From: Treponema sp.
GTDB lineage: Bacteria > Spirochaetota > Spirochaetia > Treponematales > Treponemataceae
DNA length: 64,000 bases
Direction of reading: 5' to 3'
NCBI GenBank assembly: GCA_014803985.1
Contig: JAAVAO010000014.1
Span: forward strand, 6,900-70,899
In this document: one piece after another, positions 48,447-54,665 of the stretch
Numbering within the stretch: the first letter of the stretch is position 1
Layout of the letters: every line of letters begins with the position of its first letter
Notes under the pieces: generated by a model
Seen by the model: the letters and a program-made list of their open reading frames with translations, nothing else
Told to the model about the DNA's origin: nothing
The model's database searches: none
Translations under genes and position numbers: made by a program

Positions 48447-50189
48447 TTACTTCAACAAATCATTTTGTTTCAAGAAACCAATGAAAGCGTCTATGATTTC
48501 ATTATGCCTTGCGGTAATATCCGCTTCCGTAAAATCGTTTTTATTTTTCGCAAAGTTCTGAAGTTCTATGATTTTTGATCCTTCTTTATTTTGACCTTTT
48601 GCGTTTGTGAAACCTTTATAGTATTTCTTTTTATCCCCAAACCTGTAATCAGAAGCACGGATATTTATCCTTTTCTCAAGTATTGATTTATTTCCCAAAG
48701 ATTCCAGCAAGTTTGTATTTGAAAGCGCATTTTCATGTTCCTGCCGTTTTCTTGCAAAGATATGTTCAATTTCAAACACTGATTCAAGGGAAAGCAAGGG
48801 TTGGTTTTTATCATTGAACGCCCACCATGTCAGCATTGACTTTGTAATCGGACGACCATTACTAAAATAATAGTTGTTAAACATTGATTTGACCGTCGCT
48901 GCCTCAAATTTGCATTCCGCAAATTCAATATCCTTCCCTTCTACAAGATTGACCATTTCTGCAAATACGGGAATACGAAGCGCGTTCACGCCTGGATTTG
49001 TCACCGCATAAGTCCAAATGAAAGCCGTGATTTTCGTTAAAAACGCGCAGAATTTCGTGTCGTCAAGTTTTCCGTTTGCGTCCTTATTCCGCATGAAATA
49101 AACTGACGTGAAATAGTTCCACATTCCGTTTGGCGCATAGTTCAACACATACAGGCGGCGGAGGACTTCATCACTAAATCTTTCTTTATCCTGATTTGAT
49201 ATGTCATTCCAAAAATCTGCTAACGCTTCCAAATTTTCCAATGTTTCATCTTTTTTCAGGAGCGCATAACTATCTTTTTCATAAAACTTTCGCAACGCTT
49301 CTGTCGTTGAGGATTTAATTTTACGACAAGCACGTTCATAATACATATAACGGGTAAAAAGTTCATCCATTGGAGTTCCCGTTATCGGATGAAAGATTTT
49401 TGCTGATTGTTCTTCAAGGGCTTTCCAACGCTTAATGAAATTGTCTTTCTCACCTTTATTTTTATAATACTTGTAGAACTGGGCTTTGAAAATATCTGCA
49501 TCCGAAAGCGGCAGTCCTCTGTCGTTCAATGTCGAAAAAATCCTTAATGCCGTGTCCTGGCTTTCCGCTTCAATGGGAAGAAGAATGCAGTTATTCAAAA
49601 TACGGGTCGGTAAGTAAGAAAAGTAACTGGGAAATTTTTGAAGAAATTCATTAATTTGCTTCTGGAAAAATCTGTAGTTAATCGCATATTTGCTTTTCAT
49701 ATTTTCAGGAGCAGAACCACTTTTCAAGATGTTCAAGAATTCATCTTTGTCATTGTCGGTGGCAACCTCCGAATCGATCTTCAATTTTGATTTATCGGGA
49801 GTGCCAAATTCATCTGTTTTCCAAATGCACTTTTCAAGATTCTCGCGGGTTTTCTTTGAATTCTCATCTTGCATCATTCCAAACTTTTCATAGAAAGCGC
49901 GGAGTAAAAGCATAAGTGTTGTCAAGCGTTGCTGACCATCAATGACTTCCATTTTGTTTGAGTCATTTTTGAAAGTGACAATCGAACCTAAAAAATATTC
50001 GTCACTGTCGCTGTCAAATTTTGAATAATCATTGTCGGGGAATGCAAAATTGAAAATATCTTCCCATAATGTTTGGCATTCTGCGTCTTCCCACGCATAA
50101 GGACGCTGATAGTCAGGAATTAAAAAATCTGATTTTTTGTCGGCGAACAACCCGGATATTGTTTTTTGATCGATGTTTAGTTTGGACAT
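48447..50189 (-). CDS. DUF262/DUF1524 protein (GmrSD-like restriction enzyme)
   Basis: This 580-residue protein has an N-terminal DUF262 ParB-like NTPase domain (IPDYQRPYAW near 24; EVIDGQQRLTTLMLLLRAF near 78, the DGQQR motif). A helical middle follows, and a C-terminal DUF1524 His-Me-finger nuclease with FEIEHIFARKRQ near 458 and NLLESLGNKSIL. GmrSD proteins use NTP hydrolysis to cut modified phage DNA (type IV restriction). AGGAG precedes the ATG. A four-hairpin leader lies immediately upstream, and a small broken gene follows. Confidence 0.88.
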   Translation of the reverse strand: MSKLNIDQKTISGLFADKKSDFLIPDYQRPYAWEDAECQTLWEDIFNFAFPDNDYSKFDSDSDEYFLGSIVTFKNDSNKMEVIDGQQRLTTLMLLLRAFYEKFGMMQDENSKKTRENLEKCIWKTDEFGTPDKSKLKIDSEVATDNDKDEFLNILKSGSAPENMKSKYAINYRFFQKQINEFLQKFPSYFSYLPTRILNNCILLPIEAESQDTALRIFSTLNDRGLPLSDADIFKAQFYKYYKNKGEKDNFIKRWKALEEQSAKIFHPITGTPMDELFTRYMYYERACRKIKSSTTEALRKFYEKDSYALLKKDETLENLEALADFWNDISNQDKERFSDEVLRRLYVLNYAPNGMWNYFTSVYFMRNKDANGKLDDTKFCAFLTKITAFIWTYAVTNPGVNALRIPVFAEMVNLVEGKDIEFAECKFEAATVKSMFNNYYFSNGRPITKSMLTWWAFNDKNQPLLSLESVFEIEHIFARKRQEHENALSNTNLLESLGNKSILEKRINIRASDYRFGDKKKYYKGFTNAKGQNKEGSKIIELQNFAKNKNDFTEADITARHNEIIDAFIGFLKQNDLLK

Positions 50190-50200
50190 TTAGAACTCCT

Positions 50201-50350
50201 ATGAAAAGTCAAGAAAGAAAGTTGAAACTTTCTTTCTTGACTTTTCATGCCACTTCGTAATGAAATGAGAAGTGGCATTTGATGTGCAAGTTTCCAACGG
50301 AAACTTGTCATGATAAAAGTACTGCGCCATTTGTGCGGTGCTTTTATCAT
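50201..50350 (-). promoter_or_regulatory. Four-hairpin leader element, copy 1 (upstream of the DUF262 gene)
   Basis: H1 50201-50248 has a perfect 23-bp stem. H2 50249-50276 is GCCACTTC, 12-base loop, GAAGTGGC. H3 50287-50307 is CAAGTTTCC-AAC-GGAAACTTG. H4 50310-50350 is 41 bases. The element ends where the DUF262 ribosome site begins. The same architecture recurs at 50965-51111 with compensatory changes. A further hairpin (CAAGTCCAAC pairing GTTGGGCTTG, 50414-50436) lies between it and the flavin reductase stop. An RNA leader is inferred. Confidence 0.7.
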
Positions 50351-50441
50351 AAATCCTTTTTTATTAGATTTTATTTTCTTGGATTTAAATAGTCAAGAGA
50401 TTTTTTGTCTCTGCAAGTCCAACTATGTTGGGCTTGATATT

Positions 50442-50951
50442 CTACTCCTCCGTCTTTTTTGCCGGGGCGATTTCGGCATAGCCGTTCCATGCGAACAGCG
50501 GCTTTTCCTGCTCGTCGGCGTAGACTTGCTCGACGTTGCAAATGTACAGGTAATGGTCGCCCGTCTCCACGAATTCTTTCAGGGTGCAGACGATGGCAAG
50601 CGCGCTGTGGAGTGGCACACGGATTTCGCTTTCAGGAAGCGACTGCATCTCGATGCCGAATTTTTCGATTTTGTCGGTGTTCCTGCCCGTTGTGCTTCCG
50701 CAGCCCAGCACGGCTTCCGCGATTTTTTCGCTAGGCACGGTGAGGACGACTTTTTTGTTCTGCCGCACCATTTCGCCGCTGAACGACGTTTTCGCCATCG
50801 CGTAGGCGATCATATTCGGGTTATAGGAAAGGTACGTCCACCATGAGACGGTCGCGAGGTTCGTGCCGCCGTCCATATTTTGCGTGCAGACAAGCGTTAC
50901 AGGATTGGGCGAAGTGACGCGCGCCGCTTTGGGCAATGTGATTTTGTTCAT
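50442..50951 (-). CDS. Flavin reductase family protein, second copy
   Basis: This 169-residue FMN-binding split-barrel protein has NPVTLVCTQNMDGGTNLATVSWW, NPNMIAYAMAKTSFSGEMVRQNK and VCTLKEFVETGDHYLYICNVEQVY. It is a different subfamily from the 47480 protein. The gene is GC-rich against AT-rich surroundings, which suggests transfer. It is divergent from an HxlR regulator, the common arrangement for redox- or aldehyde-responsive flavin reductases. Its leader holds the second four-hairpin element. Confidence 0.85.
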   Translation of the reverse strand: MNKITLPKAARVTSPNPVTLVCTQNMDGGTNLATVSWWTYLSYNPNMIAYAMAKTSFSGEMVRQNKKVVLTVPSEKIAEAVLGCGSTTGRNTDKIEKFGIEMQSLPESEIRVPLHSALAIVCTLKEFVETGDHYLYICNVEQVYADEQEKPLFAWNGYAEIAPAKKTEE

Positions 50952-50964
50952 GGAATTCTCCTAT

Positions 50965-51111
50965 AAAAAGTCAATTACAATTTTGAAAAATTATAATTGA
51001 CTTTTTTCCGCACATTCGCAACGCAGTGTGAATGTGCATTAAATATGCAAGTTTCCAACGGAAACTTGACATGAAAAAAAGTTGACGCTATTTCAGGCAA
51101 CTTTTTTTCAT
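50965..51111 (-). promoter_or_regulatory. Four-hairpin leader element, copy 2 (upstream of the flavin reductase gene)
   Basis: H1 50965-51006 has AAAAAGTCAATTA arms with one mismatch. H2 51010-51037 is GCACATTC, 12-base loop, GAATGTGC. H3 51048-51068 is identical to copy 1. H4 51071-51111 is again 41 bases. Spacers H2-H3 (10 bases) and H3-H4 (2 bases) equal those of copy 1. Three base pairs of H2 differ by compensatory change. It ends at the GGAG of the gene's ribosome site. Confidence 0.7.
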
Positions 51112-51131
51112 ATCTCCTTTGTATTTCGTTG

Positions 51132-51160
51132 TTGACAATAATTATATGACGGTATATAAT
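51132..51160 (+). promoter_or_regulatory. Consensus sigma-70 promoter of the HxlR gene
   Basis: TTGACA (51132-51137) and TATAAT (51155-51160) are 17 bases apart, a perfect consensus, about 70 bases ahead of the regulator start. Confidence 0.8.
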
Positions 51161-51231
51161 CGCCGTCAAGTACGCACATTTTTGTTATATACTTACAAAA
51201 AGTAGAGTAAGATTTTTTGAAGAGGCAGGTT

Positions 51232-51573
51232 ATGGAAAGACTAGACGAACGCTGCATCGGCAACGAAAAACTTTGCGAGACGGGATTCAGTTACACGCTG
51301 TCGCTTATCAGCGGCAAATACAAAATGACCATTCTTTACGCGCTCATGGAATTCGGGGTCGTGCGGTTCAACGCGCTACAACGGTACATCAAGGGCATTT
51401 CGTTCAAGACGCTGAGCCTTTCGCTGAAAGAACTTGAAGCCGACAAGTTAATTATCCGCACGGAATACCCGCAGATTCCACCGAAAGTGGAGTACAGCCT
51501 TTCCGAGCGCGGCAAGTCCCTCATGCCCATCCTCGACGGCATGTGCGAATGGGGCGAGAAGAATCGGATGTGA
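51232..51573 (+). CDS. HxlR-family winged-helix regulator
   Basis: This 113-residue winged helix has the HxlR signature: an N-terminal cysteine (C17), LSLISGKYKMTILYAL, VRFNALQRYIKGISFKTLS (recognition helix) and PPKVEYSLSERGKSLMPIL. Members sense redox or aldehydes through the cysteine. Divergent placement from the flavin reductase suggests it controls that gene. GC-rich codon use contrasts with its own AT-rich promoter region, a sign of transfer. AGAGGCAGG precedes ATG 51232. Confidence 0.88.
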   Translation: MERLDERCIGNEKLCETGFSYTLSLISGKYKMTILYALMEFGVVRFNALQRYIKGISFKTLSLSLKELEADKLIIRTEYPQIPPKVEYSLSERGKSLMPILDGMCEWGEKNRM

Positions 51574-51794
51574 TAGGGAAGTTGCAGGAATAGGATGACG
51601 CACTATAATTTTTCTTCGAATTATAGTATAATGATGAAAGGCATAAAAGGGTGGCGGACGACGGGCGTGGCTATCTGCACAAAGTTTGCCAGATGATGAA
51701 AGATACATTTAAAGGCAGCCTGATTATTTTACGGTAGGTATTAGATTTTTAGGTAATATAAAGAATTGGTTATGAAAGCTGAAAAGGATATATT

Positions 51795-54665
51795 ATGTTT
51801 TATCAGATGATAGAAAAACAACGGAATAAATGGTATGCGGAAAATTGCTCAGTCGCAGATCTTATCTCATATATGGGAAAAAACAATAAAATGCGTGATG
51901 CGCAAATAGACGCCATAAAGACTTATCTGTATCTCAAAATAGCTTGCAAAAATAAACCGCTCTACGAATTATTTACAAACGGCAAATTTAACTCGCTAAA
52001 TTTAGATGAACTGCCTGTTCCAACTGCTGTAAGGGAAACACTTAGCAATAATCCTGCGCTTGCGGCTTTGTATGAGTGCTGCTATCAAAAAGTTGCCGGT
52101 AAGAAAATATCCACAAACGGAATAGAAGCCATACAAGATAATCCCGCTACGATAAACGCTAACGAGTTTTTCAAGAATGTATTTTACGGCGTTACATATT
52201 CTGACTATCTTTTTAGTTTGCCAATGGGTGCGGGCAAAACGTATTTAATGGCTGCATTCATTTATCTTGATTTGTATTTTGCTATGAATGAACCAACAAA
52301 TAAAGCCTTTGCCCATAACTTTATCATATTTGCTCCTTCTGGCTTAAAATCTTCGGTTGTTCCAAGCCTTAAAACTATACAGAATTTTGATCCGTCGTGG
52401 ATAATAGCAGAGCCTGTTGCTTCAGAATTAAAACGCAAGTTGATATTTGAAGTATTGGATGAAAACAAGACGGCTAAAAAATCCAACAAGACAAGAAATC
52501 CGAACGCACAAAAAATTGCCAATCATCAACCGTTTGCGGATTTGTTTGGGTTGGTCGCCATTACCAATGCGGAAAAAGTAATTTTAGATAGAATACAGGA
52601 AAAGAACGGGCAAATATCCTTATTTGACGAAAGCGAAGATATACGAGATAAACAGGCAAACGAGCTTAGAAATCTAATTGGAAAACTGCCTAATCTTTCT
52701 ATATTTATTGATGAAGTCCATCACGCCGCAACCGACGAGAAAAAACTTCGTGCAGTCGTAAACAAATGGGCGACAAGTGGCACGGTTAATAGCGTTATCG
52801 GTTTTTCGGGAACTCCGTATTTGCAAAAAGCGGAACAGTTTTTCATAACCGATGAATCTGGAATAAAGACGGAAGAAATCTCCAATATCGTTTACTATTA
52901 CCGCCTTGTTGATGGTATAGGGAACTTTTTGAAAAAGCCAGTTGTTTACACTTCAAGCAGCAACAATCGTCTTGAAATAGTTGAAAGCGGCGTTCGTCAA
53001 TTTTTAGACGATTATAAAGATAAAATTTATCCAGACGGTACGTGCGCCAAATTAGGTATATATTGCGGAAGTATAGAAACATTGGAAGAACAAGTTTATC
53101 CGCTCATTGAAAAGATTGTCGCCGACTATGGATTAAATTCCGCAGAAGTGATTTTGAAATTCCACGGTGGGAATAAGAATTATCCCATTCCCACCGATAG
53201 CGAATATGAGTTTGCTTCTCTTGACAAACCTCTTTCCAAAAAGAAAATTATATTGCTGGTACAAATCGGTAAAGAGGGCTGGGACTGTCGTAGTCTTACA
53301 GGTATCATTCTTTCGCAAGAGGGCGATTGCTCCACGAATATGGTCTTGCAAACGTCATGTCGCTGTCTTCGTCAGGTCGAAAAGGGCGTTATCGAAAGTG
53401 CACTCATCTACCTCAATGAAGGCAATGCAAAAACATTGAATTTACAATTACAGCAACAACATAAAATCAACTTGGACGATTTCCAAAAAGGAACGCAAGC
53501 AACTTTTTATCCAATTAAACGCTATGACCGTACAAAATATTTAAAGTTGCCGAAGGTGGATTTTTATCAGTTGAAAATAAATTACTGCACATTTAATGAA
53601 GAAGAGCCTACCGATATTGCGGATAAGATCTTGCAATCACCCGCAGGCACAGAAATTCAGATGTTGAAAGAAAAAAACGAAATGTCAACCGAATTACGTA
53701 GAATTGACATTGATATAGATAGCACGGAACGAGGAACAATGATAGCGAATTTCAATACCTGGATGAATGAAATTTGTAAAGAGAGTTTTGGATTTGTCGG
53801 TTATGAAAGTTTAACGCCTTATATTACAGAATTGAAGAAAGTATTTGATAAGATAACTTTTGTCAAAGACGATAATTATTATTTTAGTTCTCTCTTTAAC
53901 CAAGTCGTTGTCAGAGAAAATATTCGAAAAGCTTTTTATGCGAAACGTTCTTTTAAAACGACGGAAGAACTGATTCCCGATGAAGCAAGTTTACTGCATG
54001 TCGAAAACTTTACCAACGAAATAATTACTTCTACGCCTAAAATATTTACGCCTGATGCGGATACAGTAGAAAAAATTATTGCGGATGACAAAGGGGTGTT
54101 AGGATTAAGCAAAGTCGAAAAACACATGCTTGAACTTGCAAAGGCAACGAATAATACAGAAATAATCAAACTTTTAAGTAATAAATCTTTTTCTCATGCA
54201 ATGAAAAACAATTCTTATCACTACTTGCCTTATAAAACGGACAGTGATTTTGAAATTAAATTTTTGGAGGAAATCCTTACATTTGATGTTGTAAAGGAAC
54301 TTAACCTTGAAGTATATTACAACGGTGACAGGGCATTGACCGAGTTCAAAATAAAATGCTATAAATCGGCAAATGGCAAGTTGAGATACATTGGTATGTA
54401 CACTCCCGATTTTTTGATAATCAAACGAAAAAATAGGGATATACATAAACTTATCATTGTTGAAACAAAAGGTAAAATCTATGCCAATGATCCCACTTTT
54501 GTTGATAAGCGGCAATTTACCGTAAATGATTTTATTTTGAAAAATAACGAAATGTTTGGTTACAATAAATTTGCTTATCTTTACTTGGAGGATTCTATTT
54601 CAGAAAATAATAGAATTATAAGGACAATAGAAACGGTTAAAGAATTTTTTACGGAGATAAACTAA
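51795..54665 (+). CDS. Type III restriction enzyme Res-like helicase-nuclease
   Basis: This 956-residue SF2 helicase has Walker A FSLPMGAGKTYLM (near 140), motif II IFIDEVHHAATD (near 308), motif III VIGFSGTPYL (near 336), and motif VI-like QTSCRCLRQ (near 520). The C-terminal PD-(D/E)XK endonuclease has YTPDFLI and IIVETKGK (near 870-895). It is the restriction part of a type III-like system. Unusually it precedes the methylase, with a membrane-protein gene between. AAAGGAT lies before the ATG. The 220-base spacer upstream holds an AT-rich inverted repeat near 51603-51624 and no gene. Confidence 0.9.
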   Translation: MFYQMIEKQRNKWYAENCSVADLISYMGKNNKMRDAQIDAIKTYLYLKIACKNKPLYELFTNGKFNSLNLDELPVPTAVRETLSNNPALAALYECCYQKVAGKKISTNGIEAIQDNPATINANEFFKNVFYGVTYSDYLFSLPMGAGKTYLMAAFIYLDLYFAMNEPTNKAFAHNFIIFAPSGLKSSVVPSLKTIQNFDPSWIIAEPVASELKRKLIFEVLDENKTAKKSNKTRNPNAQKIANHQPFADLFGLVAITNAEKVILDRIQEKNGQISLFDESEDIRDKQANELRNLIGKLPNLSIFIDEVHHAATDEKKLRAVVNKWATSGTVNSVIGFSGTPYLQKAEQFFITDESGIKTEEISNIVYYYRLVDGIGNFLKKPVVYTSSSNNRLEIVESGVRQFLDDYKDKIYPDGTCAKLGIYCGSIETLEEQVYPLIEKIVADYGLNSAEVILKFHGGNKNYPIPTDSEYEFASLDKPLSKKKIILLVQIGKEGWDCRSLTGIILSQEGDCSTNMVLQTSCRCLRQVEKGVIESALIYLNEGNAKTLNLQLQQQHKINLDDFQKGTQATFYPIKRYDRTKYLKLPKVDFYQLKINYCTFNEEEPTDIADKILQSPAGTEIQMLKEKNEMSTELRRIDIDIDSTERGTMIANFNTWMNEICKESFGFVGYESLTPYITELKKVFDKITFVKDDNYYFSSLFNQVVVRENIRKAFYAKRSFKTTEELIPDEASLLHVENFTNEIITSTPKIFTPDADTVEKIIADDKGVLGLSKVEKHMLELAKATNNTEIIKLLSNKSFSHAMKNNSYHYLPYKTDSDFEIKFLEEILTFDVVKELNLEVYYNGDRALTEFKIKCYKSANGKLRYIGMYTPDFLIIKRKNRDIHKLIIVETKGKIYANDPTFVDKRQFTVNDFILKNNEMFGYNKFAYLYLEDSISENNRIIRTIETVKEFFTEIN

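Follow-up and report, generated by a model that had tools for sequence, protein, structure and literature searches.

The window, the whole 64,000-nucleotide stretch analysed here, stems from the draft genome (2.56 Mb in 56 contigs, 90% complete) of a Treponema-type spirochaete. It contains two copies of an element of four hairpins, each of which lies directly in front of a gene on the minus strand.

48447-50189, minus strand: GmrSD (DUF262) gene, downstream of copy 1
50196-50200, minus strand: right end of copy 1, AGGAG, the working Shine-Dalgarno sequence (SD) of the GmrSD/DUF262 gene
50201-50248, minus strand: hairpin H1 of copy 1, a long near-perfect palindrome (covariation)
50249-50276, minus strand: hairpin H2 of copy 1, stem of 8 pairs and loop of 12 bases (covariation)
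50287-50307, minus strand: hairpin H3 of copy 1, CAAGTTTCCGTTGGAAACTTG, identical to H3 of copy 2
50310-50350, minus strand: hairpin H4 of copy 1 (sequence, fold and covariation over relatives)
50351-50359, minus strand: left (upstream) end of copy 1, AAAGGATTT, SD-like and, with one mismatch, a direct repeat of AGGAGTT at the right end (sequence and alignment of the ends)
50368-50396, minus strand: promoter-like TTGACT-17-TAAAAT directly upstream of copy 1 (consensus scan, 10/12)
50442-50951, minus strand: flavin reductase gene, downstream of copy 2
50958-50962, minus strand: right end of copy 2, AGGAG, which serves the flavin reductase gene as its working SD
50965-51006, minus strand: hairpin H1 of copy 2 (fold, covariation)
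51010-51037, minus strand: hairpin H2 of copy 2 (fold, covariation)
51048-51068, minus strand: hairpin H3 of copy 2, identical to H3 of copy 1
51071-51111, minus strand: hairpin H4 of copy 2 (sequence, fold, covariation)
51112-51120, minus strand: left (upstream) end of copy 2, AAAGGAGAT, SD-like, with AGGAGA common to the right end
51141-51169, minus strand: promoter-like TTGACG-17-TATAAT directly upstream of copy 2 (consensus scan, 11/12)

On the minus strand both copies read H4-H3-H2-H1, AGGAG and then the ATG of the gene. A preliminary description of this DNA had reported two elements with the same order of four hairpins, the coordinates of which hold to the base, as do the H2-to-H4 span of 102 bases in both copies, the spacers of 10 and 2 bases, the H2 loop of 12 and the H4 length of 41 bases, the sequence identity of H3, the three differing pairs of the H2 stems, each of them compensated, and the location of the copy ends at the ribosome sites of the minus-strand GmrSD/DUF262 and flavin reductase genes. 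Three features were missed at that stage: the upstream end of each window copy is SD-like as well (AAAGGAT or AAAGGAG), a good sigma-70-type minus-strand promoter lies directly upstream of each, and the genome contains dozens of additional copies. Each window copy is thus flanked by promoter and SD on one side and by SD and ATG on the other. A leader peptide starting from the upstream SD and an ATG (57 amino acids in copy 1) was considered and rejected, as the ATG is missing in relatives and the frame in copy 2 stops after 7 codons. At 51132-51169, two near-perfect sigma-70 promoters that overlap and diverge (TTGACA-17-TATAAT on the plus and TTGACG-17-TATAAT on the minus strand) separate the gene for an HxlR-type regulator from the flavin reductase gene, and GmrSD/DUF262 restriction-like and ResIII helicase-like genes flank both copies (48447-54665), possibly constituting a defence locus.

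In this genome, blastn with copy 1 as the query locates approximately 38 places at 80-96% identity, which precede unrelated genes and many of which are situated at contig ends, as expected of recent repeats. R1, a covariance model that spans the entire element and was built from the window copies, the copies hit by the Rfam TD models discussed below and relatives, recovers all of these and finds at least 49 copies in this genome, 49 being the number of candidates scored and hence a lower bound; the window copies, both included in the model, score 152.6 and 150.2 bits. R1 matches occur in 37 of 59 genomes of the genus, with 0 to at least 49 per genome, and include copies in T. berlinense, T. 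porcinum, T. ruminis, T. parvum, T. bryantii, T. zioleckii, T. vincentii and T. socranskii. Two further element-bearing contigs are assigned to a Lachnospiraceae MAG that is possibly mis-binned; the same study also yielded Treponema MAGs. A covariance search of Treponema genomes had been proposed as a check in the preliminary description, and its outcome is many covarying copies upstream of unrelated genes.

Two types of copies can be distinguished. Type A, to which both window copies belong, has an H3 of the AAGTTT(C/G)C kind and an H1 end TTTTTAT-RGGAG followed by the ATG, with H1 precisely missing in several copies (L024, L025, L026 and L071), where the SD directly follows H2. Type B has H3 GCGAGTTTT and ends in AAGGAAGG, is often arranged in tandem with a period of approximately 155, and is mostly located off gene starts. 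The tandem units have the RGGAG junction in common. On three contigs, C26 (L131), C30 (L132) and C40 (L133), one side of the copy is common at 98-99.9%, while the other side differs, with the break at the element end; gene-cassette shuffling was considered here and set aside, since the break may reflect strain variation or an assembly chimera at the repeat. A common gene that could serve as an autonomous partner was sought among the downstream genes and is not present among them.

When 23 diverse copies are aligned by hand according to structure, pairing in every hairpin amounts to 91-99%, versus 57-78% in column shuffles. In a MAFFT alignment of 16 copies (A1), with the structure taken from those same copies, 138 cells are double-changed versus 41 in shuffles, and the pairing of 90% falls to 36-51% once one arm is slid. 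Very strong two-sided covariation is thereby seen in all four hairpins, and the loops are well conserved as well, with an H4 core like TGAAATAGC, an H2 loop like TCAYTTCRTTRC and the H1 loop TGAA.

Such conservation raises the question on which molecule the structure matters. The preliminary description had taken selection on RNA or cruciform structure as the simplest explanation, and a cis-regulatory RNA leader, in which hairpins of the 5' UTR control translation at the adjacent SD and which has spread because it is useful, draws on the placement of the element within the 5' UTR, downstream of the promoter and upstream of the ATG and with H1 adjoining the SD, and on a very stable fold (-70.8 kcal/mol for copy 1 and -62.3 kcal/mol for copy 2 with short flanks; minimum free energy z-scores of -11.2 and -9.4, respectively, against dinucleotide shuffles). 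Were the pairs kept on one RNA strand, however, G-U should far exceed A-C. Of the 1006 cells of the element in 23 copies, 17 are G.T and 15 A.C, a count that rests on the alignment made by hand, whereas the SRP RNA of the same genus, used as a control, has 81 G.T versus 3 A.C in 981 cells from 30 genomes (Fisher p of approximately 1e-7, which is too small as cells of related sequences are not independent). With G.T about equal to A.C, the pairing is symmetric for both strands, as in palindromes that matter as DNA. The pairing is maintained as DNA palindromes and not on one RNA strand.

Beyond the lacking excess of G-U, the host genes are unrelated, most orthologous leaders are without the element and type B is intergenic and in tandem, mostly away from gene starts. 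Retention at dapA in three genomes (G008, G019 and G034) is the exception to the lack of conservation at orthologous or functionally linked genes; it speaks for an RNA leader and was counted against mobility. Overall, it is unlikely that the element is primarily an RNA leader; of the earlier interpretation the structural constraint stands, and the suggestion of a cruciform or mobile element was its better half.

The symmetry of the pairing has a second possible source. Two-sided changes without wobble intermediates or strand preference are also compatible with a palindromic repeat spread by copying errors, that is by quasi-palindrome correction (template switching) with microhomology at RGGAG and no dedicated enzyme, in which case the covariation would not reflect selection; the precise loss of H1 in several copies and the tandem arrays fit this scenario. 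Correction alone would nevertheless not keep the loops, spacers and four-hairpin order across species diverged by approximately 30%, and dispersal in one orientation to dozens of SDs needs a targeting step, which leaves copying errors as an improbable explanation.

The association with SDs was evaluated in a later set of loci, chosen by DNA pattern in named genomes and with a few from species also in the model. Type-A copies end in an SD 2-10 nt before an ATG in 57 of 64 cases versus 7% at random positions, an ATG being counted if it opens a frame of 60 codons or more, or of 25 or more where the locus end cuts it off. A second SD-like RGGAG is found at the opposite end of type-A copies. The downstream genes, named from their translations, have no common function and comprise frr, surE, serA, lexA, hisD, fabD and antitoxin genes.

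Comparison with orthologous leaders gives a view of the sites before insertion. Between tsf and frr the element is absent in 15 of 16 other species, and the frr leader of G006 has a different, four-hairpin-like insert. The dapA leader of G019 reads ..cgcactcAGGAGGAATA, the element and then AGGAGGAATATATG, while element-free G003 reads ..cgcactcAGGAGGTATGTTATG; in front of the element the leader of G019 is ..gcgcactcAGGAGG, to be compared with ..ccgcactcAGGAGGTATGTTATG in G003. Most of 30 dapA leaders read are without the element, G034 has it and G063 has one of different sequence. Upstream of the RAYT gene of G010 the element is placed between TATATATACAGGAGG and GGGAGGAAATTATG (TATATATACAGGAGG..GAAATTATG), while other RAYT genes have the ATG preceded by a promoter-like box and a single SD, as in TATATATAGGAGTAATTAATG. 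In all three cases (dapA, frr and RAYT) the leaders without element, which come from other species and not from near-identical strains, possess one SD at the insertion point. This observation suggests that the element has inserted at the SD, with two SD-like sequences present afterwards.

The two ends of a copy resemble each other beyond chance. After GGAG, the bases at the left and right ends agree better within one copy than between copies (permuted pairs, p < 1e-4), and in the later sample the mean flank match run is 6.8 versus 4.5 (permutation p < 1e-4). Match runs extend to 10-20 nt in some copies and often cover GGAG only; some of the long runs have their origin in a left flank formed by the tail of a preceding tandem copy. 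Of 19 copies in this genome, 16 have GGGAG as the right end and 15 an AGGAG-like left end, while GGGAG is found in 0 of 11 GGAG-type sites upstream of large open reading frames of the window, from which it follows that the right end belongs at least in part to the element itself. Counted against mobility was that in this genome left GGAGTT and right GGGAG occur nearly regardless of the target and that the ends are often non-identical beyond GGAG; a simple target duplication of fixed length is therefore not established. A second short repeat, approximately CTCGCCGCTAACGCGGAGTTTnnAAGGAGG, occurs just upstream of the SD in several Treponema genomes, with or without the four-hairpin element (L070, L109, L146, L147, L150, L152 and L175).

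The element's anatomy, copy number and patchy distribution are established, as are its SDs at the two ends, its position before the ATG, the empty orthologous sites with one SD, the flank duplication beyond chance and the absence of a wobble preference for either strand. The best explanation, to which we assign a probability of roughly three in four, is a non-autonomous mobile DNA element of approximately 160 bp that inserts at SD sites and leaves the gene an SD. The element of four palindromes (H4-H3-H2-H1) would join at the SD (A/G)GGAG, its left boundary presumably representing the original SD of the target and the right end carrying or duplicating one, whereby the ribosome site would stay 2-10 bases before the ATG and the gene would survive; one SD would derive from the target and the other from the element or from duplication. 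The fixed orientation would follow from the asymmetry of the target, and the tandem arrays with a common RGGAG junction from repeated insertion at the same SD. The palindromes would be constrained as DNA in the form of hairpins in single strands or of cruciforms, presumably because a putative recombinase acting at RGGAG recognises folded DNA. An end that restores the SD would explain why housekeeping genes, among them frr, surE and serA, tolerate insertions into their leaders. Counted against a mobile element were the type-B branch, mostly away from gene starts, and that no mover was found among the candidates examined, Y1/RAYT and the integron integrase.

As candidates for the mover, the Y1 transposase of RAYT type, acting on a REP-like element, and an integron integrase, acting on an attC-like site, come to mind in view of the hairpin DNA, the short GGAG tag at the hairpin foot and the lack of inverted repeats of the DDE type; RAYT genes are present in some element-rich genomes and the genus is rich in integron integrases. 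Y1_Tnp is, however, absent from this genome and from G021, G030 and G033, and the repeats at the boundaries of the RAYT genes are of the GGGGACAGACCCC type and not the four-hairpin element. One copy in G010 is located 46 bp from a Y1 gene, but as other Y1 genes are flanked by GGGGACAGACCCC and none occurs in this genome, this candidate was dropped. Integron integrase shows no link to copy number, as G001, G002 and G005 possess the integrase and 0 copies, and it is absent from G014, G030, G063 and G075, all with many copies; bounded cassettes associated with IntI, typical of attC sites, were not observed either. Both enzymes are largely refuted as movers by their distribution, which renders this alternative highly improbable. 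Treponema RAYT-like Y1 transposase genes with flanking GGGGACAGACCCC-type repeats are found at L095, L136, L137, L138, L140 and L142, and 20 of 59 Treponema-type genomes encode an integron integrase above the curated cut-off, truncated remnants being present in others.

The element had been described as matching no known riboswitch or attenuator, but it is a distant, sub-threshold relative of TD-1 (RF03155) and TD-2 (RF03162), uncharacterised candidate structured RNAs that form the Rfam clan CL00124 and of which TD-1 is typed as Cis-reg, a classification in line with an RNA leader. Copy 2 scores 42.5 bits with TD-2, the gathering cut-off of which is 48.7, and copy 1 matches neither family. TD-2 has 46 matches in this genome, 0 of them over the gathering cut-off, and the best TD-1 match in this genome reaches 64.4 bits at a gathering cut-off of 64.5, the window copies not being among those over the cut-off. 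Neither the copies of this genome nor the loci of Treponema isolates have a match at gathering level. In a TD-1 search over 59 relatives matches are confined to the genus and one relative exceeds the cut-off, G006 with 66 bits, where the TD-1 member is a full element with four hairpins, both SDs and the ATG. TD-1 spans H3-H2-H1 up to 'aggA' (UaUaggA end), TD-2 spans H2-H3-H4 of the opposite strand, and in a tandem array of this genome the two match the same units on opposite strands, which indicates that both families describe overlapping parts of one element. In the wide sense the element is a member of this clan, with the same order and kind of hairpins and homology by a shared model. Rfam lists the halves as separate RNA families, one per strand, whereas the present evidence favours a single DNA element, and it is more probable than not that TD-1 and TD-2 are the opposite strands of an SD-targeting, SD-restoring mobile class moved by a putative enzyme acting on folded DNA, and not RNA genes. 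A literature search, in which the source paper of the two Rfam entries was not covered, found no publication naming TD-1 or TD-2.

REP/BIME sequences are extragenic palindromes of many copies in which the foot of the hairpin carries a short tag (PMC3733652). The element shares these features, but it differs by its 160 bp, four different hairpins, RGGAG instead of GTAG, the location at SDs and the absence of a linked RAYT, as no dedicated Y1 transposase gene flanked by the element was found. Like MITEs and small repeats such as BOX, RUP and RU-1, it is short, non-coding, dispersed and non-autonomous, and it may duplicate its target; unlike MITEs, it lacks clear terminal inverted repeats and targets an SD, and inspection by eye spotted no parent insertion sequence with matching terminal inverted repeats. 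With integron attC sites it has in common a structure kept despite sequence drift, integrases in the genus and, presumably, folded single-stranded DNA as the substrate, whereas cassette arrays and a link between integrase and copy number are lacking and insertion is at SDs of chromosomal genes.

If this interpretation is correct, two RNA families of a database would have to be re-labelled as one DNA element, and a mobile element that targets ribosome-binding sites with the genes still translatable would be added to those known. Through the long hairpins that it brings into dozens of gene leaders, the element could rewire expression across the genus. The comparison of G.T and A.C with an RNA control provides a simple means to separate DNA palindromes from structured RNA among further orphan RNA families.

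The window harbours another repeat, a tandem array of 3.9 units of 174 bp at 7-690. ARAGORN detects no tRNA in this array and Rfam gives only tiny sub-threshold tmRNA matches. On the minus strand the unit consists of the hairpins GGCGGCAG..CTGCCGCC and CAAGTTTGC..GCAAACTTG, followed by GACGGGTTCGACTCC and a terminator-like hairpin, and the array looks like repeated small-RNA-like units.
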